DNA from: Bacteroidota bacterium
GTDB lineage: Bacteria > Bacteroidota > Bacteroidia > Flavobacteriales > Schleiferiaceae
Assembly: GCA_024742495.1 (NCBI GenBank)
Contig: JANSYJ010000002.1
Span: 558,001-622,000, forward strand
Reading direction: 5' to 3'
DNA: 64,000 nucleotides
Positions 10,321 through 41,835 of the stretch are shown one piece after another. Below the pieces are notes generated by a model. It saw only the letters and a list, made by a program, of their open reading frames with translations. It ran no database searches and was not told where the DNA came from. Positions within the stretch are counted from its first letter, which is position 1, and each line of letters opens with the position of its first letter. The position numbers and the translations under genes are program-made.

Positions 10321-10422
10321 CGAGAAAATGATTTAGTTTTGAGTAGGGCTAAATTATGTAAGCACTTCAGAAAGGAGGAAAACTTCATTTCCCTCTTTTA
10401 TTTATTTTGTATTGATGTAGAA

Positions 10423-10998
10423 GTGAAAAGATTATTTGTCATCGCGGGTTGCAACGGAGCGGGAAAAACAACTGCATCATACACCATATTACCAGAAATA
10501 TTGGGATGTGATGAATTCGTAAATGCCGATGAAATTGCTAAAGGACTTTCCCCATTTAACCCGGAATCAGAAGCTATTGCAGCAGGTAGGTTGATGCTAA
10601 CCAAAATTGATAGACTGATTGAAAAAGGACAGGATTTTGGGTTTGAAACAACTTTAGCAACGAAAAGCTATAAGAACCTTGTCATACATGCTCAAAAAAG
10701 TGGTTATCGGATCACACTATTGTTTTTCTGGCTTAGAAACCCACAGCTGGCAGTAAAACGAGTAGAGACTAGAGTAAAAGAAGGAGGACATAATATTCCG
10801 GAAGATGTTATTAGAAGAAGATACAATAATGGACTTAAGAACTTCTTTGCGATATTTGAGCCCATCGTAGATGACTGGATGTTTATTGATAATTCTGGTG
10901 AACCATATCAAATAGTGGCTCGTAAAAACTCTAAAGGGTTAACAATCAACAATAAAATTTTGTGGGAAGAACTAAAACTCAAATACCAAAATGGCTGA
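10423..10998 (+). CDS. Zeta-toxin-like P-loop kinase
   Basis: 191 aa from the GTG at 10423; the frame continues upstream to a TTG at 10339, but that part looks non-coding. The protein starts at the first beta strand (KRLFVIAGCNGAGKTT), a Walker A loop with GxNGAGKTT. Further family landmarks are NADEIAKGLSPF, GFETTLATKSY and a helical part with VKRVETRVKEGGHNIPEDVIRRRY, the basic lid seen in zeta toxins and their relatives. Zeta toxins phosphorylate UDP-N-acetylglucosamine; the same fold is also used by kinases of unknown substrate, so toxicity is inferred. It overlaps a 57-aa gene by 8 bases and sits between two copies of a 400-bp repeat. Confidence 0.8.
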   Translation: MKRLFVIAGCNGAGKTTASYTILPEILGCDEFVNADEIAKGLSPFNPESEAIAAGRLMLTKIDRLIEKGQDFGFETTLATKSYKNLVIHAQKSGYRITLLFFWLRNPQLAVKRVETRVKEGGHNIPEDVIRRRYNNGLKNFFAIFEPIVDDWMFIDNSGEPYQIVARKNSKGLTINNKILWEELKLKYQNG

Positions 10999-15343: not shown

Positions 15344-18300
15344 CTAGCTTTCTAAACTCAGAACAAGATCATCCTGAGCGACCATGCTATTGTCGCTTAA
15401 GTCAATATTCCTGACAGTTCCCGGACGAGTGGCCAGCACTGTACTTTCCATTTTCATGGCTTCAATCACAAATAGAGGATCATTCTTTTCAACCCTGTCG
15501 CCGACTTTAACCAGCACTTGCACTAATTTACCTTGCAGTGGGGATCCTATTTCATGCTCCTCAATAGCCTTTTTATTTTGTACCGTAGAGACTTCAATCA
15601 TACGATCTAAAACTTCAACATGACGGTTTTGGCCATTGAGTTTGAAATAGACCTGACGATAGCCCATTTCATTAGGTTCGGTGATACCCAAGAAGCGAAC
15701 GAGGATGGTTTTCCCCTGATCAATCTCCACCATTACTTCTTCATTTTGCTTGAGGCCATACCAAAAAGCTAAACTGGGAATGCGCCATACATCTCCAAAC
15801 TCGCGTTTGAATTTTAAATAGTCTAAAAATACTTTTGGATAGAGGCGATAACTCAAGAAATCGAGTTCACTTAAATCCTTTCCGTATTCCTTTTGAAAGG
15901 CCTGCATTTCGTTATCAAAGTCAACCGGATCCAGGTGGGCATTAGGTCTTTCCTTAAATGGCTTTTCGTTTTTTAGGACGAGCTTTTGAAAAAGAATTGG
16001 GAAGCCACCATGAGGTTGTCCCAGTTCACCCTTAAAGAAACTAATGAGGGAGTCGGGGAAGGAGATATCGCCACCTTTAGCCATCAGGTCTTCCTTGCTG
16101 TATCCGTTGGTGGTCATGAACATCGCTAAATCGCCCACCACCTTAGAGGATGGCGTAACTTTTACCAGGTCTCCCATAAGTTGATTAGCGATTTTATAAT
16201 TCTTTTTGATGGTTTCAAATTGATCTTCAATTCCCAATCCTCTAGCCTGCGGTCTAAGGTTGGAATACTGTCCACCGGGTATTTCGTGATCGTAAAGTTG
16301 CGCCGTTCCCGACTTTAAACCAGATTCGAAGGGATAATACCAATCTCTTATCCTTTCCCAATAAACACTCATTTCATTCATTTTCTGAAGGTCCATGGGG
16401 TTTTCACGCTCATGGCCTTGCAGAGCGGCGAGCATCGAGTTGAAATTGGGTTGAGAGGTAAGGCCGCTCATAGAGTCAATTGCCACATCTACCACATCAA
16501 CCCCAGCTTCAATTGCTTTAAGATAGGTTGCCGATTGAATTCCGGCGGTATCATGGGTATGCAAATGAATGGGAATGGAAATGCTCTTTTTTAGTTCTTT
16601 GATTAGTTTTTCTGCTGCATAAGGTTTTAATAAACCGGCCATATCTTTAATGGCCAAAATATGGGCTCCCATATCTTCAATCCTCTTGGCCAAATCGAGG
16701 TAATACTCTAAACTGTATTTGGGATGGTTTTTCGGATCGCTAATGTCGCCAGTATAACAAATGCTTACTTCGGCCAAACCTTCAGTTTCCCTCAAAACGG
16801 CCTGGGTAGAAACCTTAAGCTGCTCGGTCCAGTTAAGGGAATCAAAAATTCGAAAAACATCTACCCCATTTTCCCAAGACTTGGCGATAAATTTTTCTAC
16901 CAAATTATCGGGATAGGCTTTATAGCCTACCGCATTACTCGCTCGGATAAGCATTTGGGTTAAAACGTTGGGCATGGCTTGCCTTAATAAGCGCAGTCTT
17001 TCCCAAGGGTCTTCTTTTAGGAAGCGCATGCAGACGTCAAAGGTGGCTCCTCCCCAAATTTCCGCAGAAAAGAGTTGAGGTGCACTTTTACTATAGCTTT
17101 CAGCAATATTCAAAAGGTCGATGGTGCGCACACGGGTGGCTAATAGCGATTGATGAGCATCGCGAAAGGTGGTATCGGTAAAGTATATTTTTTTCTGATC
17201 CTTAAGCCACTCAGACAGGCCTGCTGGCCCTAGCTCCGTGAGTAGATTTTTGGTGCCTGGGGTATGCGCCGAATGCCGATCGTATTCGGGTACAATGGCC
17301 TCCTGAAATTTGCGATTGGGATCGTGATTTTTAATTTCCGGGTTGCCGTTTACAATCACTTCCGACATATAACTTAATACTCGGGTGCCGCGATTCCGGG
17401 TTTTTTGAATCTCTAATAAATCGGGATGGTTTTCAATAAATCCTACTCTCTGCTGCCCGCTCCTAAAAACGGGATGGGCAATTACATTTTGCAAAAAGGG
17501 GATATTGGTTTGTACGCCTCTAATTCTAAATTCCGATAATGCACGGCGCATGCGATCGCTGGCAACATCAAGGCTGGTTCCCCAGGCAGAAACCTTAACC
17601 AGCATAGAGTCGAAGAAAGGTGAAATTTTCACCCCTGGGTAGCTACTTCCTTCATCAAGACGAATACCCATTCCCGCAGCATTGCGATAGGCGATAATAG
17701 TTCCATAATCCGGACTAAAACCATTGGCGGGATCTTCGGTGGTAATTCGGCATTGAATGGCATGACCATTAACTTTAATGGCCTCTTGATTTGGAATGCC
17801 GATCATTGGGCCATCTAATGGCTCGCCTTGGGCAACTTGAATTTGAGCTTTTACAATATCGTAACCGGTAATTTCCTCGGTAATGGTGTGCTCTACTTGA
17901 ATTCGAGGGTTCACCTCAATGAAATAGATATTTTCGTTTTTATCAACCAAAAACTCCACCGTTCCAGCATGAGTATAATTCACTGCTTTGGCTATGCGCA
18001 GGGCATACTCGTGCAATTGTTTGCGGGTGGCCATATTTAGGGTAGAGGCTGGGGCTACTTCTACCACTTTTTGAAAACGTCTTTGTACCGAGCAATCTCT
18101 TTCATGCAGGTGCACTAAATTACCGTGCAGGTCGCCCAAGAGTTGTACTTCGATATGCTTGGGATCTTCTACAAACTTTTCAAGAAAAATGGTGGGATCG
18201 CCAAAGGCCTTGGCCGCTTCACCAGAAGCTTCTCTGTAGGCCGATAATAAACTTTTAAGATCGCGCACTACCCGCATGCCACGACCGCCGCCACCAGAGG

Positions 18301-18784
18301 CTGCCTTTAGCATAATGGGGAAGCCAATTTTCTCTGCCGCGGCAATTATTTCTGCTTCTTCCTTCAGACCATCGGCCCCTTCTATCATGGGAACCCCCAC
18401 TTTTTTCGCGAGATTTTTCGCGGCAATTTTATTGCCCAATTGCTCCATAATGGCCGCTTCAGGACCAATAAAGGTGATGCCCTCTTCTTTACAACGGCGA
18501 GCAAAGTCAATATTCTCGCTTAGAAACCCGTAACCAGGATGAATGGCATCAATTTTTTTCCGCTTGGCAATTCGCAGTATTTCTTCAATATCTAAATAAG
18601 GGCGCAGTGGTTCTTCATTAGGACCAATTTGATAAGATTCATCGGCCTTATAGCGGTGAAGGGAATAACGATCTTCATAACTATAAATGGCAACGGTACG
18701 CAGTTTTAACTCCGTAGCGGCGCGGAAAATACGGATTGCAATTTCACCGCGGTTGGCAACGAGAAGCCTTTCTATTTTCGGCAT
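15344..18784 (-). CDS. pyc: Pyruvate carboxylase
   Basis: 1146-aa single-chain enzyme converting pyruvate, bicarbonate and ATP to oxaloacetate. Domains in order: biotin carboxylase (residues about 1-455, with LVANRGEIAIRI, ATP-grasp GGGGRGMR and ERDCSVQRRFQK), carboxyltransferase (about 530-800, starting DTTFRDAHQSL, with IKDMAGLLKPY and HLHTHDTAG), PYC/allosteric tether, and a C-terminal biotinyl domain with EAMKMES, the biotinylated Lys near residue 1111. Full length, cytoplasmic, anaplerotic. Divergent from the cytochrome operon. Confidence 0.97.
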   Translation of the reverse strand: MPKIERLLVANRGEIAIRIFRAATELKLRTVAIYSYEDRYSLHRYKADESYQIGPNEEPLRPYLDIEEILRIAKRKKIDAIHPGYGFLSENIDFARRCKEEGITFIGPEAAIMEQLGNKIAAKNLAKKVGVPMIEGADGLKEEAEIIAAAEKIGFPIMLKAASGGGGRGMRVVRDLKSLLSAYREASGEAAKAFGDPTIFLEKFVEDPKHIEVQLLGDLHGNLVHLHERDCSVQRRFQKVVEVAPASTLNMATRKQLHEYALRIAKAVNYTHAGTVEFLVDKNENIYFIEVNPRIQVEHTITEEITGYDIVKAQIQVAQGEPLDGPMIGIPNQEAIKVNGHAIQCRITTEDPANGFSPDYGTIIAYRNAAGMGIRLDEGSSYPGVKISPFFDSMLVKVSAWGTSLDVASDRMRRALSEFRIRGVQTNIPFLQNVIAHPVFRSGQQRVGFIENHPDLLEIQKTRNRGTRVLSYMSEVIVNGNPEIKNHDPNRKFQEAIVPEYDRHSAHTPGTKNLLTELGPAGLSEWLKDQKKIYFTDTTFRDAHQSLLATRVRTIDLLNIAESYSKSAPQLFSAEIWGGATFDVCMRFLKEDPWERLRLLRQAMPNVLTQMLIRASNAVGYKAYPDNLVEKFIAKSWENGVDVFRIFDSLNWTEQLKVSTQAVLRETEGLAEVSICYTGDISDPKNHPKYSLEYYLDLAKRIEDMGAHILAIKDMAGLLKPYAAEKLIKELKKSISIPIHLHTHDTAGIQSATYLKAIEAGVDVVDVAIDSMSGLTSQPNFNSMLAALQGHERENPMDLQKMNEMSVYWERIRDWYYPFESGLKSGTAQLYDHEIPGGQYSNLRPQARGLGIEDQFETIKKNYKIANQLMGDLVKVTPSSKVVGDLAMFMTTNGYSKEDLMAKGGDISFPDSLISFFKGELGQPHGGFPILFQKLVLKNEKPFKERPNAHLDPVDFDNEMQAFQKEYGKDLSELDFLSYRLYPKVFLDYLKFKREFGDVWRIPSLAFWYGLKQNEEVMVEIDQGKTILVRFLGITEPNEMGYRQVYFKLNGQNRHVEVLDRMIEVSTVQNKKAIEEHEIGSPLQGKLVQVLVKVGDRVEKNDPLFVIEAMKMESTVLATRPGTVRNIDLSDNSMVAQDDLVLSLES

Positions 18785-18881
18785 TTGAATGGGCTTAAGG
18801 ATTGTTGCCCCAAATTACAAAATAGCCTATTGCTTAGGGAGCAATAATCAGTATAAATAAGCGCTACTGTAGCTAAGGCCA

Positions 18882-18912
18882 GTTTTAGTTTGTTTTTTAT
18901 GATAAATTTGAA
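18882..18912 (+). promoter_or_regulatory. Candidate Bacteroidota promoter of the cytochrome operon
   Basis: TAAATTTG at 18903-18910 fits the Bacteroidota -7 consensus TAnnTTTG, and a T-rich TTTTAG lies about 20 bases upstream near the -33 position. It lies 38 bases before the ATG of the first operon gene. The assignment is by pattern only. Confidence 0.35.
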
Positions 18913-18948
18913 TTGAGCTAAAACCAAACCGTCCTAACCTAATATTTT

Positions 18949-19806
18949 ATGGCTCGAAAGTCCAAGCTTAAACTCGGACATCTTATATACCAATCTATAT
19001 TGGTGCTTATTGTAATGATTGTTAGCCTTTGGTTAGCAATTCACGGTTACGATTATTATCAAACCCCGCTTGAGGAACGATTTTACCACCCTGAACACGA
19101 GTGGTTTAAAGCATCAGGTTTATTTGGGCATGGATTGGGAGTAATTGGTACCCTGCTTATTTGTATCGGTGTTTTTGGCTATATACCGGCTAAAAAGTAT
19201 GGCTTCCTGGAAAAGTACATTCGCCTACGCTACCTTTTAGAGTTCCATATTTTTCTCTGCACATTAGGTCCAGTTTTGATTCTCTTTCACACTACCTTCA
19301 AATTTGGTGGGGTGGTATCCATTGCTTTTTGGTCCATGGTTTTGGTGGTCTTGTCGGGTGTTGTTGGGCGCTATATTTATTTACAAATCCCCCGAAGCAT
19401 TTCCGGACGAGAGCTCAGTAAGCAGGAAATCAGAGAAACTCAAAAGGAACATTTAAAGGGCCTGAATTTATTAAAGGAACAGGCACCAGAATTATACCTG
19501 CAGATTAGCAATTTTAATAAGGGTGAAGAAGGACAATGGCAAGGTCGCTCTGCATTTAAAAAGCAGTTTAAACAATTGAAGAAAAACCTGGCCGTTTCTT
19601 CTTTATCAGGGAAGGAACAAAGAAGTCTTTTAGCGGATTTTAAAAATGAGCAGGTTTTACAGCGCAAAATTGAGCGCTTGGAATACATGCAAAAGCTTTT
19701 TAAATATTGGCATGTGGCCCACCGTCCTTTTGCATTAATAATGCTCATTGTATTGATCTTACATATCGTGGTGACTATGGGAATGGGCTATACTTGGATT
19801 TTTTAA
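18949..19806 (+). CDS. Membrane cytochrome b-like subunit, first gene of the multiheme operon
   Basis: 285 aa. Spans lie near residues 10-32, 55-78, 93-113, 120-143 and 258-282, with a soluble charged segment (about 150-255) rich in Lys/Glu/Gln. Membrane His residues come in several pairs: FGHGLGVIG, EFHIFLC, LFHTTF, AHRPFALI and LILHIVV. This suggests one or two b-type hemes in a four-helix bundle. I do not recognise a named family. The next gene, an Fe-S/flavin oxidoreductase, starts 2 bases after its stop, so this protein probably takes electrons from it or from quinol and feeds the periplasmic cytochromes. Confidence 0.65.
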   Translation: MARKSKLKLGHLIYQSILVLIVMIVSLWLAIHGYDYYQTPLEERFYHPEHEWFKASGLFGHGLGVIGTLLICIGVFGYIPAKKYGFLEKYIRLRYLLEFHIFLCTLGPVLILFHTTFKFGGVVSIAFWSMVLVVLSGVVGRYIYLQIPRSISGRELSKQEIRETQKEHLKGLNLLKEQAPELYLQISNFNKGEEGQWQGRSAFKKQFKQLKKNLAVSSLSGKEQRSLLADFKNEQVLQRKIERLEYMQKLFKYWHVAHRPFALIMLIVLILHIVVTMGMGYTWIF

Positions 19807-19808
19807 GC

Positions 19809-21128
19809 ATGTGGGAGGCCCTCATCTATAGCATCGTTATTCTAATAGCCGCATTTATAGTTTGGTATTATTTGCGTGCTGGTATCCAACAATCTAAGTC
19901 AATTGAAGGTAAGGTAAAGCAGGCCCAAGAAGAAGGTCGTTTTCAACCGGTTTCTCTTCATCCTCATATCGATCCCAATCGCTGCATTGGCAGTGGTGCC
20001 TGCATACGCGCCTGCCCAGAGGAGGATATCATTGGGCTTTTGGATGGTAGAGCTACCTTAATTAATGCTAGCAGTTGTATTGGACATGGAGCCTGTTTTC
20101 ATTCTTGTCCGGTGGACGCTATTAGTCTGCGAATTGGCACCGAAGAAAGAGGAATTGACCTACCCCATGTAAAACCCGATTACGAAACCAATATTAGTGG
20201 AATATACATTGCCGGTGAATTAGGAGGAATGGGGCTTATTAAGAATAGCGCTGATCAAGGGGTGCAAGCCTGCACTAATGCAGCTGCTGCTCTGCCAAAG
20301 GAAGTGGCCTGCGATCTCGATTTAGTGATCATTGGAGCCGGTCCCGCTGGAATTGCGGCTGCATTAAGAGCAAAGGAGTTGGGCCTTAATTTTAAGCTTT
20401 TGGAACAGGATTCTTTGGGAGGCACCGTCTTTACCTATCCGCGTGAAAAGGTCGTGATGACGCAGCCCATGGATTTGCCTCTCTTCGGGAAGCTTAAGTT
20501 TTATAATACTAATAAAGAAGAGCTCCTAAGTACTTGGTCAAAGCTCATTGAGGATCATGCTATACCCTTACAGGAACATAGCAAGGTGAAGGCTATCTCG
20601 GAGCAAGGCGATTACCATTTTAAACTCGAATTGGCATCAGGCGAAAGCCTCGAATGCCGCTCAGTAATAATTGCAATTGGTCGTAGAGGTAGCCCCCGTA
20701 AATTGGGAGTAGCCGGTGAAGAATCGGAAAAAGTAGCCTATCGGTTATTGGAACCCGAGAACATTCAAAATCAGAAGGTGCTGGTAGTAGGTGGTGGCGA
20801 CTCGGCAGTTGAGGCGGCCTTACTATTAATGAATCACAATCAGGTAAGTATCTCTTATCGAAAGGCGCATTTTGCACGCATTAAGAAGGGAAACCAGATA
20901 AAGTTGGAAGAGGCTTTGGCAAGTGGAAAGATTAAGCCACTACTTGAAACGAATTTAAAAGCGATTGAAAAGGAGGCGGTATTCCTACTGGATAAGGAAG
21001 GCCAAGAATTGAGAATAGACAATCAAAAGGTATTCATTTTTGCCGGTGGAGAATTGCCAATTTCATTTTTACAGTCGGCGGGAATTACAGTTGAAAAAAC
21101 CTTCGGGAAAACCCTAAAGAAACATTGA
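19809..21128 (+). CDS. Membrane-anchored ferredoxin / pyridine nucleotide-disulfide-type flavin oxidoreductase
   Basis: 439 aa from the ATG at 19809; the upstream frame overlaps the preceding gene and is not used. Residues 1-25 are one hydrophobic span (LIYSIVILIAAFIVWYY). Two 4Fe-4S sites follow (CIGSGACIRACP near residue 60, CIGHGACFHSCP near 90). A FAD/NAD(P) oxidoreductase domain follows, with GAGPAGIAAALRA near 180, VVGGGDSAVEAALL near 330 and IFAGGELPI near the end. The flavin part resembles YpdA/thioredoxin-reductase-like enzymes but has no CxxC disulfide motif. It would oxidise NAD(P)H or ferredoxin at the cytoplasmic face and pass electrons to the adjacent b-type subunit. Confidence 0.8.
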   Translation: MWEALIYSIVILIAAFIVWYYLRAGIQQSKSIEGKVKQAQEEGRFQPVSLHPHIDPNRCIGSGACIRACPEEDIIGLLDGRATLINASSCIGHGACFHSCPVDAISLRIGTEERGIDLPHVKPDYETNISGIYIAGELGGMGLIKNSADQGVQACTNAAAALPKEVACDLDLVIIGAGPAGIAAALRAKELGLNFKLLEQDSLGGTVFTYPREKVVMTQPMDLPLFGKLKFYNTNKEELLSTWSKLIEDHAIPLQEHSKVKAISEQGDYHFKLELASGESLECRSVIIAIGRRGSPRKLGVAGEESEKVAYRLLEPENIQNQKVLVVGGGDSAVEAALLLMNHNQVSISYRKAHFARIKKGNQIKLEEALASGKIKPLLETNLKAIEKEAVFLLDKEGQELRIDNQKVFIFAGGELPISFLQSAGITVEKTFGKTLKKH

Positions 21129-22723
21129 AGCATAGAGTTTACATAGCAGTGTTCTTTAGCCTTTTAAGCCTAAATTCTTTGATGGCTCAGTTTTCACCTG
21201 GCAAACTCTCGGAAGCGCATGCTGAATTTGAGGGCTTAGATAATTGCACCCTTTGCCATAAAATTGGCGCCCAAGTTTCGGAACAGAAATGTTTGGAATG
21301 CCATAAGGAGCTGCAAAGCTTATTGGATGCGAATAGAGGATATCATTCATCTAAAGAGGTTCAGGCGAAAACCTGCGTGAATTGCCACAGCGAGCATCAC
21401 GGAAGAAAGTTTGATGCCTTGCATTTTGATGAAGATCAATTTGATCATGAACTGGCGGGATACCCCTTAGAAGGTGCTCACGATCGCATCGACTGTAGAG
21501 ATTGCCACAAACCCGATTACATCGCAGATCCTGAGCTGGCCAAAAGGACTAAAACATTTCTAGGTTTAGAAGCCGCCTGTTTAAGTTGTCATGTGGATTA
21601 TCATCAAGAAGACTTGGGAGCAGATTGCCTTTCTTGTCATAACTATGAAAGTTTTAAAGAAACCCCAGGTTTTGATCATGATGAGACTGATTTTCCCTTA
21701 GTTGGGGCGCATCAGGAAGTTCAATGTTTAGACTGCCATCCAAAGGTGATGAAGGCGGGCAGGGACTTTCAGCAATTCTCCAATCTTTCCTTTCAAAAAT
21801 GTACCGATTGCCATGAGGATAGCCACAATGGTAAATTTGGAGAAAACTGCACGGATTGCCATCGTGAAGAGTCTTGGTCTATTTTAAAGAATAAGCATCG
21901 ATTTAATCACAATCTTACCGACTACCCATTAGAAGGCCAACATAAATTAGTTGCCTGTAATGACTGCCATCGCTCGGGAAACTTTCAAGCGAGTATGCCT
22001 TTTGCGCGTTGTACCGATTGCCATGAAGACTATCATCAGGGTGAAATAAGTGCAATAAGCAGTGGTGTAAAGGATTGCGATGCTTGTCATGCTTTAACGA
22101 GTCCTTTTACTTCATCCTCTTACGATTGGCAGGATCATCAAGAAAGTGACTTTGCCCTTGAGGGAGCACATTTAGCAACGCCGTGTTTCGCCTGCCACAA
22201 GGAAACTGAGAATAGCCGCTGGGATTTTCAATTCGAAAGCCAATCCTGTGTTTCCTGTCATGATGATGTCCATCAGGATTTTCTCAGTGAGAAATACTAT
22301 CCAAATCAAGACTGCGAAGCTTGTCATACGGCTGAAGCTTGGTCGGATATCAAATTTGATCACAAAGAAACCGGTTGGAACCTAGATGGGGCTCATGCTA
22401 AAGAAAATTGCCGAGCCTGCCATTATAATTCTAATTTGCAACGTTTTAAAGTATTAAGCGGCGATTGCGTGGAATGCCATGATAATGTACATGGTTCTCA
22501 ATTTGAGGCCAAAGGGACAAATAACTGCTTATTATGCCATCGCAGTGCTTTAACTTGGAATGCGGATAATTTTGATCATCAGCAAAGCCAATTCCCCCTA
22601 GAAGGAAAGCATGCTATTGTAGATTGCAAAGCCTGCCATAAGCCGGAATTGCAAAGCGATGGTGCAGAAATGATTATTTATAAAATTGAAAAGTTTGAAT
22701 GCATAGATTGCCACGGTTCTTAG
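21125..22723 (+). CDS. 20-heme cytochrome c
   Basis: 532 aa. The start is a TTG at 21125 overlapping the previous stop; the first ATG (21182) would cut off most of the signal peptide MKHRVYIAVFFSLLSLNSL, so TTG must be used. I count 20 CxxCH heme-binding motifs evenly spread from residue about 40 to the last residues (final CIDCH). They are organised as a repeated unit of the form FDH..TDFPLxGAH..VxCxxCH, with extra His residues for distal ligation. It is exported and matured in the periplasm, and probably forms a long heme wire. Overlaps the next cytochrome gene by 25 bases. Confidence 0.9.
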   Translation: MKHRVYIAVFFSLLSLNSLMAQFSPGKLSEAHAEFEGLDNCTLCHKIGAQVSEQKCLECHKELQSLLDANRGYHSSKEVQAKTCVNCHSEHHGRKFDALHFDEDQFDHELAGYPLEGAHDRIDCRDCHKPDYIADPELAKRTKTFLGLEAACLSCHVDYHQEDLGADCLSCHNYESFKETPGFDHDETDFPLVGAHQEVQCLDCHPKVMKAGRDFQQFSNLSFQKCTDCHEDSHNGKFGENCTDCHREESWSILKNKHRFNHNLTDYPLEGQHKLVACNDCHRSGNFQASMPFARCTDCHEDYHQGEISAISSGVKDCDACHALTSPFTSSSYDWQDHQESDFALEGAHLATPCFACHKETENSRWDFQFESQSCVSCHDDVHQDFLSEKYYPNQDCEACHTAEAWSDIKFDHKETGWNLDGAHAKENCRACHYNSNLQRFKVLSGDCVECHDNVHGSQFEAKGTNNCLLCHRSALTWNADNFDHQQSQFPLEGKHAIVDCKACHKPELQSDGAEMIIYKIEKFECIDCHGS

Positions 22724-23727
22724 CTCTGATTTTGATCCTGGGTTTAAGTGTAAGCTTAACTGGTCAAAATCCCCATGGAGAGGATTTTCGAATTAATTGC
22801 GCAGATTGCCATAATGCAGGCTCCTGGCAAGTAGCGATTAATGCAATAAAGTTCGATCATAGTTCTACGGGCTTTGCTTTGGAAGGGCAACACTCCACCG
22901 TTGCTTGCATGGATTGTCATCAAGATTTAGATTTTAAAACTGTAGAATCGGAATGTGTTACTTGTCATGAGGATGTGCATCAGATGAGCGTTGGTAACGA
23001 TTGTATGCGCTGTCATGATAGTCAATCTTGGCTGGTTTTTGAGATTCCCGAATTGCATGAGCAAAATGGCTTTCCCTTACAGGGAGCTCATACCGCCTTG
23101 GCCTGTGTTGATTGCCATGATAATAGCAATAATCTAGTTTGGGAGCGATTAGGGCAGGAGTGCATGGACTGTCATCAAAGGGATTTTTTGCAAACCACCA
23201 ATCCCAATCATGTAGAAGCAGGATTTTCGATGAATTGCGTGGCCTGCCATGAGCCATTTAGTCAAGCTTGGAGTGGCGATAACTTTCATTATTTCTTTCC
23301 CCTCACGCAGGGTCACGATGGCTTAGACTGCCGTGATTGCCATCAGTCTGATGCTTATGACCAGCTTAGCCCCAATTGCGTTTCTTGCCATTTGGAAGAT
23401 TATCAAAATACCCAAAACCCAAATCATTTGGCATCGGGAATCCCTCGAGATTGCGCCCTTTGCCATAGCACCGCCCCAGGTTGGATGCCGGCCAATTTCC
23501 GATCTCATGATGATTTGTACTTCCCTATTTACAGCGGAAATCATCAAGGAGAATGGAACTCTTGTATCGAATGCCATCTAGACCCAAATAATTACAGCAA
23601 TTTTAGTTGCATCGACTGCCATGAGCATAATGACGAAGCGGATATGCGCGATGAACATGACGGGGTAGGTGGCTATCGCTTCGAGAGTAATGCCTGCCTA
23701 AGTTGCCATCCCGATGGATCGGAATAA
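22699..23727 (+). CDS. 13-heme cytochrome c
   Basis: 342 aa. ATG at 22699 lies inside the end of the preceding gene (25-base overlap); a TTG at 22708 is a possible alternative. Signal peptide RFLALILILGLSVSLTGQ. I count 13 CxxCH motifs with the same repeat style (FDHSSTGFALEGQHSTVACMDCH), but with more irregular spacing near the C terminus, where the last motif CLSCH is six residues from the end. Sequence similarity to the previous gene suggests duplication. Predicted periplasmic or outer-membrane-associated electron carrier. Confidence 0.88.
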   Translation: MHRLPRFLALILILGLSVSLTGQNPHGEDFRINCADCHNAGSWQVAINAIKFDHSSTGFALEGQHSTVACMDCHQDLDFKTVESECVTCHEDVHQMSVGNDCMRCHDSQSWLVFEIPELHEQNGFPLQGAHTALACVDCHDNSNNLVWERLGQECMDCHQRDFLQTTNPNHVEAGFSMNCVACHEPFSQAWSGDNFHYFFPLTQGHDGLDCRDCHQSDAYDQLSPNCVSCHLEDYQNTQNPNHLASGIPRDCALCHSTAPGWMPANFRSHDDLYFPIYSGNHQGEWNSCIECHLDPNNYSNFSCIDCHEHNDEADMRDEHDGVGGYRFESNACLSCHPDGSE

Positions 23728-23729
23728 GA

Positions 23730-25343
23730 ATGCTTGAAAGGAAAATCAAATATGGCCTCCTACTGCTAATTTGCACCCTAAGCCTTAAAGCTCAGGAAAA
23801 GCGCGAGGCAAGCGTGTCTTTTATAAGCGGGGAGAGTGTTTACCTGCGATTCGAAAGTACCGAAGGGGTTGCGGAGGGCGACACACTTTTTCAAGTGAGC
23901 GAGCAAAAACCATGTTTACGGATTTTAAAGGTTTCTTCCGTTTCGGTCTTAGCGGAATCTATCGGTTCCTGTTTTATTGAGAAAGGGTCAGTCTTCCATC
24001 TGAAGTTAAAATCGAAGCCCAGTAAGCTTGATAATACGGTGTCTGACGCCGAGCTTCAAATTGCCGCGGGCCCGGCAGAAAGCAGGGAGGATAGTTTAAG
24101 TATTAAGCAAAATAAAGGGCTTCCCGAGGCAAGAATTTACAAGAATAATTATCTAAACCTTGGCATAAGTAGTGCCTTAACGCAAAGTACCAATGGCCGG
24201 AGTAATATAAGATCCGTTTTTAGAGCCAATCTCCGAATGGATAGTTTATTTGGAAAAGACATTCGATTTGAGAGCTTTGGGAACTTTCAGGATTTCCGCC
24301 GGACTTATGAAAGTGATGCCGATCCCTTTAGGGCCAACCTTTATAATATGGCCCTAACATATCGTTCCAAGGAACATCATCAAATTAGCTTGGGTCGTAA
24401 GATAAACCGTCGTGTGGCCTCCTTAGGAGCTATAGACGGATTGCAGTGGGAGGCAAATTATAATAATTATCGCTTGGGACTAATTGCAGGATCTAGGCCA
24501 GATTTCGAAAACTTCTCCTTTAATCCAAGCCTCATGCAGTATGGCCTTTACGGGGCTTATGATTGGCGAGGAAAAACTGGGTCTGGACAAATAAGCCTGG
24601 GGATTTTGGAACAGAGAAATGATGGCCAAATAGATCGAAGGTATCTATATACCCAGCAAAATTTTCACCTTAAACGCTTCAGTGCTTTCGCTTCCGCAGA
24701 AATAGATCTTTATGAAAACTTCGATACTGCCACCGCTGCTAATGCCTTTAAATTAAGCTCTTTATTTCTCTCAGCACGATATCGGATAAATTCAAGATGG
24801 AATGTATTCGCTTCTTATGATAGCCGCCAACAGATAATTTTCTTTGAGCGCTATGACTCTGAAATTGAACGATTACTAGCAGAGCAAGGAGCGCGACAGG
24901 GTTTAAGATTGCGTAGTGATTACCGATTTTTTAAGGCTACGAGCTTAGGTGTTTCATACAATTTCCGCACTAATCCCAGCTTTGGGAATAATAGCGAGAA
25001 TATCCAAATTTACCTGCGGCAGGGCTCCATACCCTGGATCGGTGGTGCTCTTTTATATCGCTTCAATAAAAATGAGAATGGCAATCTTTCTTCAGAAATA
25101 AACTCCATTCGCTATTCGCGAAACTTTCCGGCGAATTGGCGCTTTTCAATGAATTACCGTTATGTGGCTTATAATTATACTCTTTGGGATATTAGCCAAG
25201 ATCCACAAATGTATTATGGTTTAGAGCTTTCCAAAAGCATCAATCAAAATTGGAACATCGCCTTAATGGGAGAGTATAGCCAACTTAATGAGGAAGATCT
25301 CATCCGCGTATTTATTCGGATTAACAAAAGACTTAGATTTTAA
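23730..25343 (+). CDS. Outer-membrane beta-barrel protein of the cytochrome operon
   Basis: 537 aa from the ATG at 23730 (MLERKIKYGLLLLICTLSLKAQ signal peptide). An upstream in-frame ATG at 23703 overlaps the preceding gene. Residues about 25-120 form a small soluble domain. From about 140 to the end there are many alternating polar/aromatic strands (LGISSALTQS, FESFGNFQDF, WRFSMNYRYVAYNY), ending in IRVFIRINKRLRF, a typical barrel closure with terminal Phe. In this position it probably forms the porin sleeve of a porin-cytochrome conduit, although it shows no sequence match that I can see to MtrB. That role is inference from neighbours. Confidence 0.65.
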   Translation: MLERKIKYGLLLLICTLSLKAQEKREASVSFISGESVYLRFESTEGVAEGDTLFQVSEQKPCLRILKVSSVSVLAESIGSCFIEKGSVFHLKLKSKPSKLDNTVSDAELQIAAGPAESREDSLSIKQNKGLPEARIYKNNYLNLGISSALTQSTNGRSNIRSVFRANLRMDSLFGKDIRFESFGNFQDFRRTYESDADPFRANLYNMALTYRSKEHHQISLGRKINRRVASLGAIDGLQWEANYNNYRLGLIAGSRPDFENFSFNPSLMQYGLYGAYDWRGKTGSGQISLGILEQRNDGQIDRRYLYTQQNFHLKRFSAFASAEIDLYENFDTATAANAFKLSSLFLSARYRINSRWNVFASYDSRQQIIFFERYDSEIERLLAEQGARQGLRLRSDYRFFKATSLGVSYNFRTNPSFGNNSENIQIYLRQGSIPWIGGALLYRFNKNENGNLSSEINSIRYSRNFPANWRFSMNYRYVAYNYTLWDISQDPQMYYGLELSKSINQNWNIALMGEYSQLNEEDLIRVFIRINKRLRF

Positions 25344-25344
25344 A

Positions 25345-26103
25345 ATGAAGTATTTAAGAATTGCGGTGGCATTTGGCTTAATGGCATCTTGTCAACAAGG
25401 ACCAAAAGTTTTAGAGGCCGAAGAAAGTGAAGCCAAGGAAATTTTTAATTCCGAAACCGAGCAAAGCAGCGCTTCAGGCCATTCAGGAGCACATCATGTT
25501 GTAGTTAAGGATACGCTGCAGGGCGACCGCTATACTTATTTAAAGGTTTTGGAAGGCGACCACGAATATTGGCTGGCAACCTTAAAAGGTGATTTTCAAC
25601 TGGAAGAGGAATATCATTTTGAAAATGGACTTTATAAAACTGACTATTATTCTACCACCTTTGATCGCAATTTTGCGGAGCTCTATTTGGTTAGTGAGCT
25701 AAGGCCAGCCTTTAGTAAGGGACAGAAAAACGCTTTGAACGCAATATTCAATCAGGGAAACGACACTCAAGTCAAGACTGGAAATGGTACAGAGACTGGC
25801 GACATTGAAGCGCTAGAAGGATCTATTAGCATTAAAGAATTAATCCAAAACGCCGATGATTGGATCGGGAAGGAGGTTCAAATTACCGCTAAGGTAACGA
25901 AGCTCAATGCCCATATTATGGATCGTCATTGGCTACATTTAAAAGATGGCAGTTTTGATAGTTTCGACATGGTGGCGACTTCACAAACCGCTGTACCCGT
26001 GGGACATATTGTAAGCCTAAAAGCTACCCTCAATAAAAATGTTGATTTCGGAGCGGGCTATTCTTACGATCTGATTTTAGAGAATGCCGAACTTATTCCC
26101 TAA
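25345..26103 (+). CDS. Lipoprotein with C-terminal OB-fold-like domain
   Basis: 252 aa from the ATG at 25345, one base after the barrel stop. Lipobox LMASC (Cys near residue 15). A Glu/Ser-rich linker is followed by a His-containing segment (SGHSGAHHVVVKD). The domain at about 170-252 starts ISIKELIQNADDWIGKEVQITAKVTK and contains HWLHLKDGS, the pattern of OB-fold proteins found next to cytochrome and nitrite reductase genes (NrfJ-like, bOB). It may help metal or heme handling at the periplasmic side of the complex. Confidence 0.65.
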   Translation: MKYLRIAVAFGLMASCQQGPKVLEAEESEAKEIFNSETEQSSASGHSGAHHVVVKDTLQGDRYTYLKVLEGDHEYWLATLKGDFQLEEEYHFENGLYKTDYYSTTFDRNFAELYLVSELRPAFSKGQKNALNAIFNQGNDTQVKTGNGTETGDIEALEGSISIKELIQNADDWIGKEVQITAKVTKLNAHIMDRHWLHLKDGSFDSFDMVATSQTAVPVGHIVSLKATLNKNVDFGAGYSYDLILENAELIP

Positions 26104-26118
26104 TCTATTCGATATTAA

Positions 26119-29100
26119 ATGAAGAAGATTTTGAATCTGCTATTGGGGCGCAAGTCGGCCTTGGTCTATATTTTATTATTTGCTCTCGCTATTGCGGTGG
26201 CCACCTTTATTGAAAATGATTTTGGTACCGATAGCGCCCAGAAGGTGATTTACAAGACTTTGTGGTTCGAGGTGCTCTTGGCCTTATTCGGATTATCAAT
26301 TCTCTACAATATGATTGAGATGCGACTTTTTCAGCGTCGCATGTGGTCGGTGGCCTGCTTTCATTTGGCGATTTTAGTAATTATCGCGGGAGCGGCTGTC
26401 ACGCGATATTTCGGCTATGAAGGAATGATGCACATTCGAGAAGCATCAAGCAGTAATAGCTTTTTGTCAAGTGAAACATACCTCAAGCTAAATTTCGAAA
26501 AAGACGGACAGATATACCCAATTGAAGAACCGGTTTTATGGTCTTCCTTAGGTGCCAATAATTTTAATGAATCCTATCAAATTGGCGCCGATATCATTGA
26601 GGTGAATTTAAAGCAATGTCTTGTAAATCCCGAATACTCCATGCAAGAAGTTGCCAATGGCTCGGCGATTTTAAAGTTAGTATTCGGCGGTGCCAATGGG
26701 CGTAAAGAGTATTTTCTGATGTACGGTACTAGCGCCAATTACGGCGGAGTTCCTTTTTACTTTGGTCCGGGAACTAAAGCAGGCTTTTTTAGCATTGGTC
26801 TAGGTGTCGATGGTCAGCCGATGGTTTATAGTGATCAAGATTACCGTTATCAAAGGATGGCCGATCGCCAACAGTTTTCCATTCCCAAAGATAGTGTGGC
26901 AGGCTTGGCATTGCGGAGCTTATACCAATGGGGGACGGCCTCCTTCGTTTTTGGCGATTATCTACCATCAGCTCAGCTAGACCGCCGCCAAGGCGCTTTA
27001 AAAATTGAATCAGCTTCTACCATTGGGCTTTTATTTGAAGTTAGGAAAGGCGATCAGACACAGGAATTATACCTCGAGGGTCGTAAGGCATTTCTTGGTC
27101 AGGAAGAGTTTTTGAACTTTGATGGTCTCCATCTTTCTATTAGTTATGGTGCTAAGCTTCGCGAACTTCCATTTTCGCTATTCCTCCATGATTTTGAAAT
27201 GGAAAGATATCCCGGAACTAATTCTCCCGCCTCTTATGCCAGTGAGGTGAGCTTGCAAGATTCAAGGACCGCCACTGCCTTCGACTTTCGAATTTTCATG
27301 AATAACATTTTAAATTATGATGGGTATCGCTTTTTTCAATCTTCCTATGATCGAGATGAGAAAGGCACCTATTTAAGCGTAAATAACGACTATTGGGGTT
27401 CCTTGCTGTCCTATATCGGTTATGGTCTTTTAACCTTAGGGATGCTATGGACCTTGGTTTCGGGCAATAGCAGATTCGCTATGCTTAGGAAGCAAGTGAA
27501 GGCTCTGCGTGCGAAACGTGCTGCGATTATTCTCTTACTTTTTAGCATTGCCCTTCCCATGCAGGCACAAAAAAAGCTGGAGTCGGAGCTGAGGGCGGTA
27601 GATGCGGTTCATGCCGAGCTTTTTAGTACCGTTTTGGTGCAGGATGTTCGCGGCCGCATGAAACCGATGCATACCCTAAGCAGAGAGGTTATTCGAAAAC
27701 TGATGGGCAAAGAAAGCTACCGTGGCTTAGATGCCGATCAGCTACTGCTTAGTGTTTGGGCCGATAACCAAGCTTGGTATGCCGAAGCAATGATTAAGCT
27801 TCCGCATCATCCCAAATTTGAGTCACTTGGATTTGAAGATGATTATCAGGCTTATAAGGCCTTCTTTAATCCCGATGGTAGCTATAAACTAAGCGCTGAG
27901 GTGCAAGCAGCTAATGCTGTTATTGACAAGGAAAAAGGAACCTGGGAAAAGGCCCTCTTGAAGCTCGATGAAAAAGTAAACATCTTTAATATGATGCTTT
28001 CGGGCTACCTATTAAAAGTAGTGCCATTGGAGGAGGATATTAATAACACCTGGGTTTCCGCTTATGCCCACGGTGAGCAAAGCTCTATTGTTGCCGATAA
28101 ACTTTTCCCTGCTTATAAAGAAGCGCTTAAACGAGGCCTGGAAAATGGCGATTTTAAATTGGCCAATGAGATTATTCTTGAGTTAATGAAGTATCAAAAC
28201 GCTCAAAGTCCAGAATTACTGCCTAGCGATGGACAGCGAAGTTTGGAAATACTCTTAAATAAGCTTAAGGTTTTTAATCGCTTGGCGCTGATCAATATCC
28301 TGTTGGGTTTAGGCTTTTTGGCCCTGCTTTTTATTCAGATTTTTAGGCCTCGTGCATCCTATCTAAAAGCTCATCAAATTCTATTTGGAGCAATGGCTTT
28401 GGCATTTATTCTTCACACTATTGGATTGGGCCTGCGCTGGTATGTTTCCGGTCGCGCGCCTTGGAGTAATGGTTATGAAAGTATGATATACATTGCTTGG
28501 ACTTCCAGCTTGGCAGGACTTCTTTTTAGTCGAAAAAGCAGCGGTGCCTTAGCGGCTACCAATGTATTAAGTGGCTTGGTGCTCATAATCGCAATGCTGA
28601 GTTATTTAAATCCGGAGATTACACCTTTAGTGCCGGTTCTACGATCGTATTGGCTAACTATTCACGTTTCACTGGAGGCTGGCTCCTATGGATTTCTCAT
28701 GTTGGGCGCCCTAATTGGCATTATTAATTTGATGCTGATGATTTTCCTTAGTCCGAATAATAAGAGTCGAATTAAAGACACCGTTTCAGAAATGACCAAG
28801 CTTAGCGAGATGACCTTAATTGGTGGACTTTTTATGCTGAGCATTGGAACCTATTTGGGTGGAGTTTGGGCCAATGAAAGTTGGGGCCGCTATTGGGGAT
28901 GGGATGCAAAGGAAACCTGGGCTTTGGTGTCTATTTTGGTTTATGCATTTTTATTGCACATGCGCTTTGTGCCAGGCCTTAGAGGTTTATTCGCTTTTAA
29001 CTTTGCCAGTCTCTTCGGCTTAGCCTCCATCATTATGACCTATTACGGAGTTAACTATTATTTAAGTGGCTTGCACAGCTATGCTGCTGGTGACCCAGTG

Positions 29101-29196
29101 CCAGTGCCGGCTTGGGTTTATTATTCCGTGGCCGGATTGATTTGTATTAGTGCTCTGGCTTGGTTTCGACAGCGTAAAATTTGGAGGACGAGCTAA
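26119..29196 (+). CDS. ccsBA: Fused cytochrome c synthetase CcsBA (ResB-CcsA fusion)
   Basis: 1025-aa multi-span inner-membrane protein that moves heme to the periplasm and links it to CxxCH motifs (system II). The N-terminal half is ResB/CcsB-like (spans near 14-33, 52-70 and 77-97, then a large periplasmic domain to about 430 and a span near 435-455). Residues about 490-720 form a second soluble region beginning with a signal-like span. The C-terminal third is CcsA, with the heme-handling WWD motif WGRYWGWDAKETW near 935 and conserved membrane His. Ends the operon, so the cytochromes are made together with their own maturation enzyme. Stops 4 bases inside the convergent vWA gene. Confidence 0.9.
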   Translation: MKKILNLLLGRKSALVYILLFALAIAVATFIENDFGTDSAQKVIYKTLWFEVLLALFGLSILYNMIEMRLFQRRMWSVACFHLAILVIIAGAAVTRYFGYEGMMHIREASSSNSFLSSETYLKLNFEKDGQIYPIEEPVLWSSLGANNFNESYQIGADIIEVNLKQCLVNPEYSMQEVANGSAILKLVFGGANGRKEYFLMYGTSANYGGVPFYFGPGTKAGFFSIGLGVDGQPMVYSDQDYRYQRMADRQQFSIPKDSVAGLALRSLYQWGTASFVFGDYLPSAQLDRRQGALKIESASTIGLLFEVRKGDQTQELYLEGRKAFLGQEEFLNFDGLHLSISYGAKLRELPFSLFLHDFEMERYPGTNSPASYASEVSLQDSRTATAFDFRIFMNNILNYDGYRFFQSSYDRDEKGTYLSVNNDYWGSLLSYIGYGLLTLGMLWTLVSGNSRFAMLRKQVKALRAKRAAIILLLFSIALPMQAQKKLESELRAVDAVHAELFSTVLVQDVRGRMKPMHTLSREVIRKLMGKESYRGLDADQLLLSVWADNQAWYAEAMIKLPHHPKFESLGFEDDYQAYKAFFNPDGSYKLSAEVQAANAVIDKEKGTWEKALLKLDEKVNIFNMMLSGYLLKVVPLEEDINNTWVSAYAHGEQSSIVADKLFPAYKEALKRGLENGDFKLANEIILELMKYQNAQSPELLPSDGQRSLEILLNKLKVFNRLALINILLGLGFLALLFIQIFRPRASYLKAHQILFGAMALAFILHTIGLGLRWYVSGRAPWSNGYESMIYIAWTSSLAGLLFSRKSSGALAATNVLSGLVLIIAMLSYLNPEITPLVPVLRSYWLTIHVSLEAGSYGFLMLGALIGIINLMLMIFLSPNNKSRIKDTVSEMTKLSEMTLIGGLFMLSIGTYLGGVWANESWGRYWGWDAKETWALVSILVYAFLLHMRFVPGLRGLFAFNFASLFGLASIIMTYYGVNYYLSGLHSYAAGDPVPVPAWVYYSVAGLICISALAWFRQRKIWRTS

Positions 29197-34091: not shown

Positions 34092-35060
34092 TCACGAATT
34101 GCGGGCCTTTTTTAGGCGGTAGCTGGTTTTGTTAAAGCTTCCGGTGCTTTCGAAAAGATTCATTTCAATGCCTGCTTTTAGATCGCGGCTAGCGGTGGCC
34201 GAGGAAATGGTCTTAAAAATGTTCATGTAATCCTTTCTGGTGAAATCGCCTTTCTGCTTTGCGCTAAAGTATTTCAAGCGATCCATTTGGCTCAAAGGAT
34301 TGTTGTTGTATTTGAGGATTTCAGATAAGGACTCATTGATGATCCTTAGCATATATTCAATAAAAAGAGTAGAATTTCCCGCTTTGTCGCATTCTGCTAG
34401 AACGCGATAGTATTCATCTTGACTTTGGCTAATTAGAGACTCGAAGGGTAGGTGTTCAAAAACCTCATAATCGTCATAAAGGATCAAGGTTTGCCATAAG
34501 CGCCCCATCCTTCCATTTCCATCTAGGAATGGATGGATAAACGCCATTTCGTAATGAAATACACAGCTTTTAATTAGGCCTAGTTCATCGGGGTCATTTA
34601 AATATTCGAAAAGCGCACGCATTAAAAAAGGTACCTTCGATGGAGGAGGGGCAAAGTGAGCAACTTTATCTCCTTTTACAATGCCAACTTCTTTGCTTCT
34701 ATAGCTTCCAGGATTAACAAGCAGATCCTCCATTAAGGTTTTATGAGCACTTAAAAAGGATTTTTCCGATTTGGGGTCTAGGGCATCTAGGTTTTCATAA
34801 ATCCTAATTGCATTAAGAACTTCTTTGATGTCTTTTATAGGACCAATCACCGGTTCATTATCAATTAATCCAGATATCTGTTCTTCACTTAAGGTGTTGC
34901 CCTCAATTTTAAGGGAGTTATGAATAGTTCTAATTTTATTCTGTTTCCTCAGTTGAGGACTAGGTTTATCCATGAAACCAGATTTTACCGCTCCAATTTT
35001 TTCAGAGACTTCTGAAATCAGCTTTAGAATCTTAGCATTTATATGATAAGGTGGCTTCAT
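34092..35060 (-). CDS. Fic-domain protein (AMPylase/NMPylase), class II
   Basis: 322 aa from the ATG at 35060 (MKPPYHINAKI); a longer frame begins at 35099, but a palindromic operator lies between them, so the inner start is preferred. The N-terminal inhibitory motif SLKIEG (S/TxxxE-G/N) marks a class II Fic, which is autoinhibited. The Fic core near residue 190 reads HPFLDGNGRMGR (HxFx(D/E)GNGRxxR), so catalysis is possible. The C-terminal part (about 250-322) is a winged-helix-like domain (RDLKAGIEMNLFESTG). Fic enzymes transfer AMP from ATP to a target hydroxyl. The target is unknown. Confidence 0.9.
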   Translation of the reverse strand: MKPPYHINAKILKLISEVSEKIGAVKSGFMDKPSPQLRKQNKIRTIHNSLKIEGNTLSEEQISGLIDNEPVIGPIKDIKEVLNAIRIYENLDALDPKSEKSFLSAHKTLMEDLLVNPGSYRSKEVGIVKGDKVAHFAPPPSKVPFLMRALFEYLNDPDELGLIKSCVFHYEMAFIHPFLDGNGRMGRLWQTLILYDDYEVFEHLPFESLISQSQDEYYRVLAECDKAGNSTLFIEYMLRIINESLSEILKYNNNPLSQMDRLKYFSAKQKGDFTRKDYMNIFKTISSATASRDLKAGIEMNLFESTGSFNKTSYRLKKARNS

Positions 35061-35062
35061 GG

Positions 35063-35080
35063 TAGTATCATATGATACTA
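35063..35080. promoter_or_regulatory. Perfect 18-bp palindrome upstream of the Fic gene
   Basis: TAGTATCATATGATACTA is a perfect inverted repeat lying 2 bases upstream of the preferred start of the Fic gene. It is the size and symmetry of a dimeric repressor operator. The winged-helix tail of the Fic protein makes self-control plausible. Confidence 0.6.
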
Positions 35081-35297
35081 TCAAAGTTAAGCTTTCCAAA
35101 CAAAACCAATAAGCTTTGAGCTAGATCTTTGAGAAAGAAAATATTTGGCAAACTTAAGTTTTCGACTCTCCAAATCTATGCGAAGAAATTCCATCAAGCT
35201 AAGGTTCTGGAATTCGCAAAATGATACTTAAAGGTTTTGAAAAGGAATTATGAATAGTCGCTAGATGCAGAGCTTGGTATGAGCCGTTATTTTTTTT

Positions 35298-41708: not shown

Positions 41709-41716
41709 TATGGGTA

Positions 41717-41750
41717 AATATGTTAAACATGAATTCAAATTTAACATATT
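41717..41750. promoter_or_regulatory. Perfect 11-bp inverted repeat upstream of the second Fic gene
   Basis: AATATGTTAAA at 41717-41727 and its exact complement TTTAACATATT at 41740-41750 are separated by 12 bases. The pair lies 8 bases upstream of the Fic start. Arm spacing (about two helical turns between centres) suits a dimeric or tetrameric regulator, possibly the Fic protein itself. Confidence 0.6.
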
Positions 41751-41835
41751 ATTCAATTTGTCCTAATTATCTTGACTTAATTGCTGCCAAGGGTTTTATT
41801 TAAACGCAAAGCGACTTAATCCGAGGGTTTATAAA

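Follow-up and report, generated by a model that had tools for sequence, protein, structure and literature searches.

Porin-cytochrome conduits such as MtrCAB and DmsEF, and the PCC of Geobacter, contain multiheme cytochromes that are genetically tied to an outer-membrane barrel. The same tie is found in an operon of seven genes (g1 to g7) in a 64,000-nucleotide stretch of DNA, the window, from a member of the Schleiferiaceae (Bacteroidota, Flavobacteriales; assembly GCA_024742495.1, contig JANSYJ010000002.1, positions 558,001 to 622,000 of the forward strand). The operon encodes an inner-membrane protein (g1), an anchored ferredoxin-flavoprotein (g2), two multiheme cytochromes of types A (g3) and B (g4), an outer-membrane barrel (g5), a lipoprotein (g6) and the cytochrome c assembly protein CcsBA (g7). 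Multiheme cytochromes are thus encoded together with an outer-membrane barrel, as in the porin-cytochrome class, the barrel itself being a prediction. The system is real and widespread in the phylum, and is undescribed as a unit in the literature searched. We hold with moderate confidence that it is an electron conduit of the porin-cytochrome type that draws directly on the NAD(P)H of the cytoplasm. Relative to the known conduits, what is new is an extendable wire and a dedicated NAD(P)H entry: the inner-membrane module is NAD(P)H-linked and is not a quinol oxidase, and one of the cytochromes is extendable. No relation in barrel sequence was found, and no outer lipoprotein cytochrome was seen.

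Strings of triheme c7 modules, like those found here, are also known from the Geobacter c7 polymers GSU1996 and GSU2210. The former is described, in the part of the source consulted, as four triheme domains in a string with one His-Met heme each (PMC10138318). Unlike GSU1996, the cytochromes described here have a candidate second histidine for every heme, and unlike either Geobacter polymer, the one described here is encoded in an operon with a barrel and ranges from 10 to 85 hemes. Giant multiheme cytochromes of Saprospiraceae in activated sludge, for which electron transfer or storage has been suggested, are also very heme-rich secreted Bacteroidota proteins and possibly the same B-type proteins; that account, in the sections consulted, concerns the proteins only, and an operon, a barrel, an NAD(P)H module and a rule for heme numbers do not appear in it (PMC11495043). 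Excerpts of other papers describe a Bacteroidetes genome from an electrode enrichment, whose six multiheme genes and barrel have a different make-up (PMC8258643), and conduit porins in Ignavibacteria (PMC7399161). The term 'Bacteroid' is absent from the main text of a broad scan of multiheme neighbourhoods (PMC11475568), and the gene set is not mentioned in the portions consulted of PMC9304909 and PMC13374861. No description of this gene set was found in the literature searched, from which supplements were excluded, so that an unlabelled mention there is possible.

Co-conservation strongly supports the parts list given in an earlier, sequence-only reading of the operon, and the view that these parts form a single system. 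Among 59 genomes, from the window's genus to its order, the barrel was present in all seven of the genus and absent from the remaining 52. Matches to g1 were found in 85 of 395 Bacteroidota genomes, and 40 were strong (E value under 1e-35, a threshold of our own); the 45 weak ones were left out, as were the matches in G194, which are fragments. The barrel profile matched 35 of the 395 genomes, all of them among the 40 with strong g1 matches, so no genome had the barrel alone and five had g1 alone. The two genes lie within 10 kb of each other in 31 of these 35 genomes (263 to 7453 bases apart), about 20 kb apart in G348, and on different contigs in G439, G137 and G376, in the last of which both contigs end inside a multiheme gene. 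A diverged barrel is present in three of the five genomes with g1 alone (L149, L155 and L156; E values of 1.9e-6 to 2.7e-12, calculated over the reading frames of the stretch in question alone), and in the other two (L148 and L150) the stretch reaches the contig end before any barrel. Once the diverged barrels are counted, the barrel is found in 38 of the 40 genomes. This gene-neighbourhood comparison had been named beforehand as a check, with a barrel occurring mostly without the cytochromes as the adverse outcome; no such pattern was seen, since all 35 barrel genomes hold g1.

Scanning a sequence collection with the g1 alignment gave at least 556 loci, and the best 80 of these were taken as a first sample. 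All those whose titles name a group are Bacteroidota, including Yeosuana, Lutibacter, Maribacter, Arenibacter, Flagellimonas and many Saprospiraceae. Genes g1 and g2 are adjacent in 79 of the 80 loci. Where enough sequence was available, a cytochrome gene lies within 1 kb of g2 in 68 of 70 loci, two or more cytochromes are present in 49 of 49, and, on either strand, the barrel is present in 39 of 44, g6 in 32 and g7 in 27. At the five loci without a barrel, the last cytochrome reaches within about 450 bases of the stretch end. In a second sample, which held no stretch near-identical to the first (97% over 1.5 kb), the barrel stands beside the cytochromes in 36 of 39 stretches, the other three stopping at contig ends; 35 of these 36 hold two or more multiheme genes, and the remaining one (L126) is cut by a contig end. 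In distant lineages g2 follows the barrel, and most stretches lack g6 and g7. On these gene-order counts, and because g6 and g7 are mostly missing in distant lineages, we take the conserved core to be five genes, namely g1, g2, the A and B cytochromes and the barrel, with the g6 lipoprotein and CcsBA as accessories. CcsBA probably serves other c-type cytochromes too, because the one ResB-type gene found in each of the seven genomes of the window's genus is that of the operon. The proposal of a self-contained unit of seven genes is therefore not upheld.

All seven genes are also present on plasmid pEMTOL02 of Emticicia oligotrophica DSM 17448, with cytochromes of 23 and 40 hemes, where they are annotated as hypothetical, NAD(P)-binding, cytochrome c3 family, GW dipeptide and CcsA proteins. 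Among 72,556 records, this was the only plasmid match at an E value of 1e-5 for g1 and for the barrel. Beside the plasmid copy (L127, 5899-8490) are genes for a Rieske protein, a DUF5777 barrel, a YceI protein and a protein with a c-type cytochrome domain, which may together form another redox unit. At another locus (L137) a second, weaker g1-like gene (E value 1.2e-15) and two cytochromes of 34 and 10 hemes adjoin the cluster, and perhaps represent a second or diverged system.

The counts of 20 CxxCH motifs in g3 and 13 in g4 given by the sequence-only reading are exact. Both proteins score far above chance with PF14522 (Cytochrome_C7; 87.3 and 61.8 bits, respectively, against a curated cut-off of 24.8). 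With TIGR04257, the c(7)-type triheme 'nanowire' domain, g3 reaches 22.7 bits against a cut-off of 40 and g4 is not listed. Of the models linked to MtrCAB and DmsEF, g3 passes PF22113 (MtrC/MtrF domain II/IV; 42.1 against 30, with g4 below at 28.6) and weakly matches the MtrA/DmsE decaheme model TIGR03508 (50.8 bits, and 21.6 for g4, against 192.2). However, PF14522, PF14537 and PF02085 outscore PF22113 on the same repeats, and the PF22113 match may reflect shared CxxCH spacing; three B relatives of 10 hemes gave no TIGR03508 match at an E value of 0.01. Against the PDB, a profile of 23-heme A cytochromes matched 3ov0, which we take to be GSU1996, at 8.8e-10, and the only match of the B profile was 1z1n, a sixteen-heme cytochrome, at 1.6e-5.

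The A cytochrome is nearly fixed in length. Complete first cytochromes of the first sample have 23 hemes at 50 loci and 20 at 14, and two further first-position cytochromes, of 16 and 13 hemes, are B types in swapped order. Among the A types classified in the second sample, 34 of 37 have 20 hemes and three have 23; at L130 the protein is split as 5+15. The second-position B cytochromes of the first sample contain 13, 16, 19, 22, 25, 28, 31, 34, 37, 43, 46, 61, 64, 67, 73 or 85 hemes, and the second sample adds 10, 40, 49 and 58. These numbers are one more than a multiple of three in 48 of 50 copies of the first sample and 35 of 36 of the second, from which L125, L126 and L148 were omitted because contig ends cut them. 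The two exceptions in the first sample (L082 and L083, 23 hemes) are A types in swapped order; that in the second (L141) has 38 hemes by CxxCH, and adding the longer-spaced CTTGCH and CLGSGCH gives 40. The rule also holds in 54 of 54 B copies of a set that was picked by its conserved ends, not by count. Six of 11 extra third cytochromes of the first sample follow the rule and five do not (26, 39, 39, 62 and 63 hemes), one of the five (L105) having a frame-shifted tail. In L151 to L153, c9 proteins outside the rule adjoin the barrel.

The B cytochrome appears from these comparisons to grow by whole triheme modules between conserved ends. Its internal modules have a median length of 74 residues, and its end modules are 56-57% identical between loci, against 47% for the repeats. 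Repeats inside a single giant copy reach 100% identity (between modules two apart in L080 and five apart in L116), and some giant copies show repeat periods of two, three or five modules. A tandem-repeat search of the DNA found an array of about 219-225 bases, and also of 444, in L114, and none in the L055 cytochromes or the window operon; many modules have therefore diverged. On a quick tree of 50 rows, the B heme count changes at least 29 times, for example between 31 and 22 in two Yeosuana species, Y. marina and Y. aromativorans. The figure of 29 is the least that parsimony allows, and the tree is imperfect: 13 of its 47 inner branches are drawn open. In the window's genus, all six complete B copies hold 13 hemes (the window, L038, L040, L041, L043 and L158). 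Duplication of modules with three hemes each would give just this rule, and the surprise lies in the size range of B beside a nearly fixed A partner.

Conserved histidines outside the CxxCH motifs match the hemes about one to one: the invariant ones number 13 in the 13-heme B (15 rows), 23 in the 23-heme A (21 rows) and 21 in the 20-heme A (15 rows, including the adjacent H91 and H92). Every heme thus has a candidate second axial histidine, and the cytochromes look like wires rather than enzymes. No recurrent partner reductase was found beside the cytochromes in the locus comparison, which also counts for a wire. That they form a periplasmic multiheme enzyme system, a nitrite or other reductase, next to an unrelated barrel is hardly credible. 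The 23-heme profile does touch a nitrite reductase chain (1qdb, 1.4e-5), but with an invariant candidate ligand for every heme no open catalytic heme is evident, and the barrel is linked. The interpretation given by the sequence-only reading is sustained in part: the parts and their coherence stand, and the bis-His pattern together with the lack of a recurrent reductase argues for a wire.

Storage of electrons was also considered. B could be a periplasmic capacitor that holds electrons through gaps in oxygen supply and is never exposed, with the barrel as a linked transporter or anchor. It has a Sec-type signal only, and its heme number varies freely, as the size of a store might. GSU1996 has been described as a capacitor (PMC10138318), and capacitor-like storage is one of the two roles suggested for the giant Saprospiraceae cytochromes (PMC11495043), each as judged from the text consulted. 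A pure store needs no barrel, however, and a barrel accompanies the cytochromes in the 36 second-sample stretches noted above; we regard storage as unlikely.

The entry to the conduit would be provided by g1 and g2. The sequence-only reading called g1 His-rich; histidine makes up only 11 of its 285 residues, and what matters instead is their conservation and HX13H spacing. Five are invariant among 16 relatives: H100 and H114, H258 and H272 (each pair HX13H), and H255. Hydropathy indicates about five hydrophobic segments, and the HX13H pairs fall within such segments. Two HX13H pairs are the usual pattern of diheme membrane cytochromes b, and g1, with two histidine pairs 13 apart in two predicted membrane helices, fits that pattern. 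The Pfam scan gave no match for g1 itself and weak matches for its relatives (DUF4405 in seven of 16 and cytochrome b561 in two). A PDB sequence search with the g1 profile gave nothing usable.

The g2 protein has a hydrophobic N-terminal anchor, followed by a 2x[4Fe-4S] ferredoxin domain and an FAD/NAD(P)H domain; PF13738 and PF13237 score above their cut-offs. The FAD/NAD(P)H domain is closest to YpdA and TrxR-like reductases of the FNR group (150 of the 339.9 bits needed for TIGR04018), from which g2 differs in its anchor and in a ferredoxin domain with a conserved candidate histidine ligand. As the NAD(P)H domain is without a CxxC motif, g2 should not be a disulfide reductase, and a YRK...R stretch suggests NADPH as the donor. 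The second Fe-S motif reads CxxHxxCxxxCP in all 106 copies read (75 near and 31 distant). At the place of the second cysteine in the first motif, the near copies have serine in 72 of 75 cases and cysteine in 1, and the distant copies have serine in 20 of 31 and cysteine in 9. The distant copies, 31 from 39 stretches, were chosen by the spacing of the two motifs, and differently spaced ones would be missed. The second cluster is thus probably ligated by Cys3His, and the first by Cys3Ser or similar; the Cys/His signature can be used to recognise the system in other genomes. In principle this set of proteins could also work inwards, with an external donor of low potential supplying the electrons that reduce NAD(P)+, and the sequence does not fix the direction. 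Established redox potentials, however, make NAD(P)+ an unfavourable acceptor for the electrons of most external donors, and we judge an inward conduit very improbable.

An AlphaFold2 model of g5, built from a 42-row alignment (mean pLDDT 82.6, pTM 0.65), has an N-terminal beta domain (residues 24-92) and a wide barrel (residues 141-536) with 22 strands by our own count. The only Pfam match of g5 is Porin_4, below its cut-off. Foldseek and VIA-align comparisons of the model returned many large barrels, among them ushers, the OprD family and TonB receptors (Z up to 19.1), which supports a large barrel and no narrower identity. At L057 (11620) a second barrel homologue of 34% identity adjoins the cluster on the opposite strand.

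In the scheme that we favour, whose order of transfer, outward direction, barrel-cytochrome complex, surface exposure and acceptor we infer, g2 would oxidise NAD(P)H and pass electrons through FAD to its two Fe-S clusters, one of them probably Cys3His-ligated. The two b hemes of g1 would then carry them across the inner membrane, the A cytochrome with its 20 or 23 bis-His hemes over the periplasm, and the string of c7-like modules in B into or through the 22-strand barrel. CcsBA would attach the hemes, and g6 would be an accessory lipoprotein. Multiheme wires extend about 1 nm per heme. At that spacing 20-23 hemes would match the periplasm, which would explain the fixed length of A and leave B free to vary. 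No proton pump is evident in the set, and electrons moving outwards would cost rather than build membrane potential, so that a redox sink or the reduction of an acceptor fits better than main respiration; the likeliest use is in one of these roles under oxygen limitation.

Several observations weigh against this conduit reading. MtrB and conduit porins were absent from the 50 rows shown in either structure comparison of g5. The barrel gave no PDB sequence match at an E value of 10 and resembles no known conduit porin by sequence; nor was an MtrB/PioB model found among the Pfam matches of 42 barrels at an E value of 0.01, and a distant structural tie to MtrB/PioB is possible. The ends of the B cytochromes, read by eye, showed no lipobox and no C-terminal sorting domain, and a structure model of g4 failed (mean pLDDT 40), so no reading was drawn from it. 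One of the 80 first-sample loci (L073, 1974-3705) has g1 with CcsBA upstream and no g2 in the 1.7 kb covered after g1; it perhaps represents a distant gene order, and was omitted from later counts. Oxygen respiration is the likely main chain of the window's organism, because its genome holds an apparent alternative complex III. Finally, several of the named carriers are aerobes that are not known for extracellular electron transfer. Other PF14522 matches in the window genome are an ActA-like protein of the likely alternative complex III and a 7-heme protein with a lipoprotein-like start.

A search of the flanks for conserved neighbours yielded nothing beyond regulators and CusA-like pumps, and these at a minority of loci. 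Genes for CusA-like heavy-metal efflux lie in the upstream flank at nine of 79 loci (L039, L040, L042, L044, L046, L051, L063, L102 and L108), as a raw count. These loci belong to several lineages, L039 and L040 to the window's own clade, and some of the genes are accompanied by a histidine kinase or response regulator. The system might accordingly be a metal or metalloid reductase for detoxification or iron gain, delivering electrons to Cu, Fe or similar ions at the surface. No such genes stand beside the window operon, however, and 70 of the 79 loci have none in the flank covered, which leaves this role quite unlikely.

Of the 'OB-fold lipoprotein' assigned to g6, the lipoprotein stands, Cys16 being invariant in 24 aligned members, while the OB-fold is weakly supported (tRNA_anti-like in one of 24, E value 0.0014). 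A GW domain (PF13457) was found in 15 of the 24, and the Emticicia homologue is annotated as a GW dipeptide protein; the window copy itself has no Pfam match. A PDB sequence search with the g6 profile yielded nothing usable. The assignment of g7 as CcsBA is borne out by PF01578 and PF05140, both over their cut-offs, with ResB and CcsA in one protein (TIGR03144, 178.7 bits, just under 187.6).

A check of the open reading frames of the window located the seven genes on the + strand at 18949-29196, in the positions claimed (Table 1). The small gaps and overlaps claimed for the junctions were also found: with the likeliest starts, g1/g2 have a gap of 2 nucleotides, g2/g3 overlap by 4, g3/g4 overlap by 25, and the gaps at g4/g5, g5/g6 and g6/g7 are 2, 1 and 15, the last being the largest. 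The start codon of g3 is TTG, and its last heme motif contains the start of g4. Of 61 pairs of first and second cytochrome genes, 53 overlap in this way by 22, 25 or 28 nucleotides, which suggests coupled translation.

Table 1. Positions of the operon genes, motifs and upstream neighbour in the window
Feature	Position	Strand	Basis or remark
Pyruvate-carboxylase-like gene	15344-18784	-	Upstream neighbour of operon
Divergent intergenic region, presumed operon promoter site	18785..18948	+	Between pyruvate-carboxylase-like gene and g1
g1, inner-membrane protein, b-type diheme pattern	18949..19806	+	His conservation, hydropathy, weak Pfam matches
g2, anchor + 2x[4Fe-4S] ferredoxin + FAD/NAD(P)H domain	19809..21128	+	Domain scans, hydropathy
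g2 first Fe-S motif CIGSGACIRACP, Ser at usual second Cys	19983..20018	+	Reading of near and distant copies
g2 second Fe-S motif CIGHGACFHSCP, His at usual second Cys	20076..20111	+	Reading of near and distant copies
g3, A-type cytochrome, Sec-type signal, 20 CxxCH	21125..22723	+	Relatives: 20 or 23
g4, B-type cytochrome, Sec-type signal, 13 CxxCH	22699..23727	+	Relatives: 10+3n hemes (10 to 85)
g5, predicted outer-membrane beta-barrel	23730..25343	+	AlphaFold2 model, structure comparisons
g6, accessory lipoprotein, GW domain + weakly OB-like region	25345..26103	+	Cys16, Pfam scan of relatives
g7, fused CcsBA (ResB + CcsA), system II cytochrome c assembly	26119..29196	+	Pfam/TIGR scans

Elsewhere in the window, translations indicate two Fic-like proteins (34092-35099 and 40407-41756), a zeta-toxin-like kinase (10339-10998), and a gene in which a deaminase-like N-terminus is apparently fused to an ATP-binding/HTH-like C-terminus (46611-48113), possibly with a defence or regulatory function.

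We propose, more tentatively than the conduit itself, that this is a phylum-wide and at least once plasmid-borne route from NAD(P)H to the cell surface, in which the reach of the wire evolves by gain and loss of triheme modules (10-85 hemes) beside an A partner of 20 or 23. The B cytochromes offer one wire in a naturally occurring range of lengths, in which the scaling of conduction and storage with heme number can be studied. If the proposal is true, extracellular electron transfer would extend to marine and freshwater Bacteroidota so far seen as plain aerobes. Roughly one in ten of the Bacteroidota genomes sampled (40 of 395) has a strong g1 match, and if the conduit works, electron export would be common, cultured type strains included, in a phylum central to carbon turnover on marine particles and in sludge.

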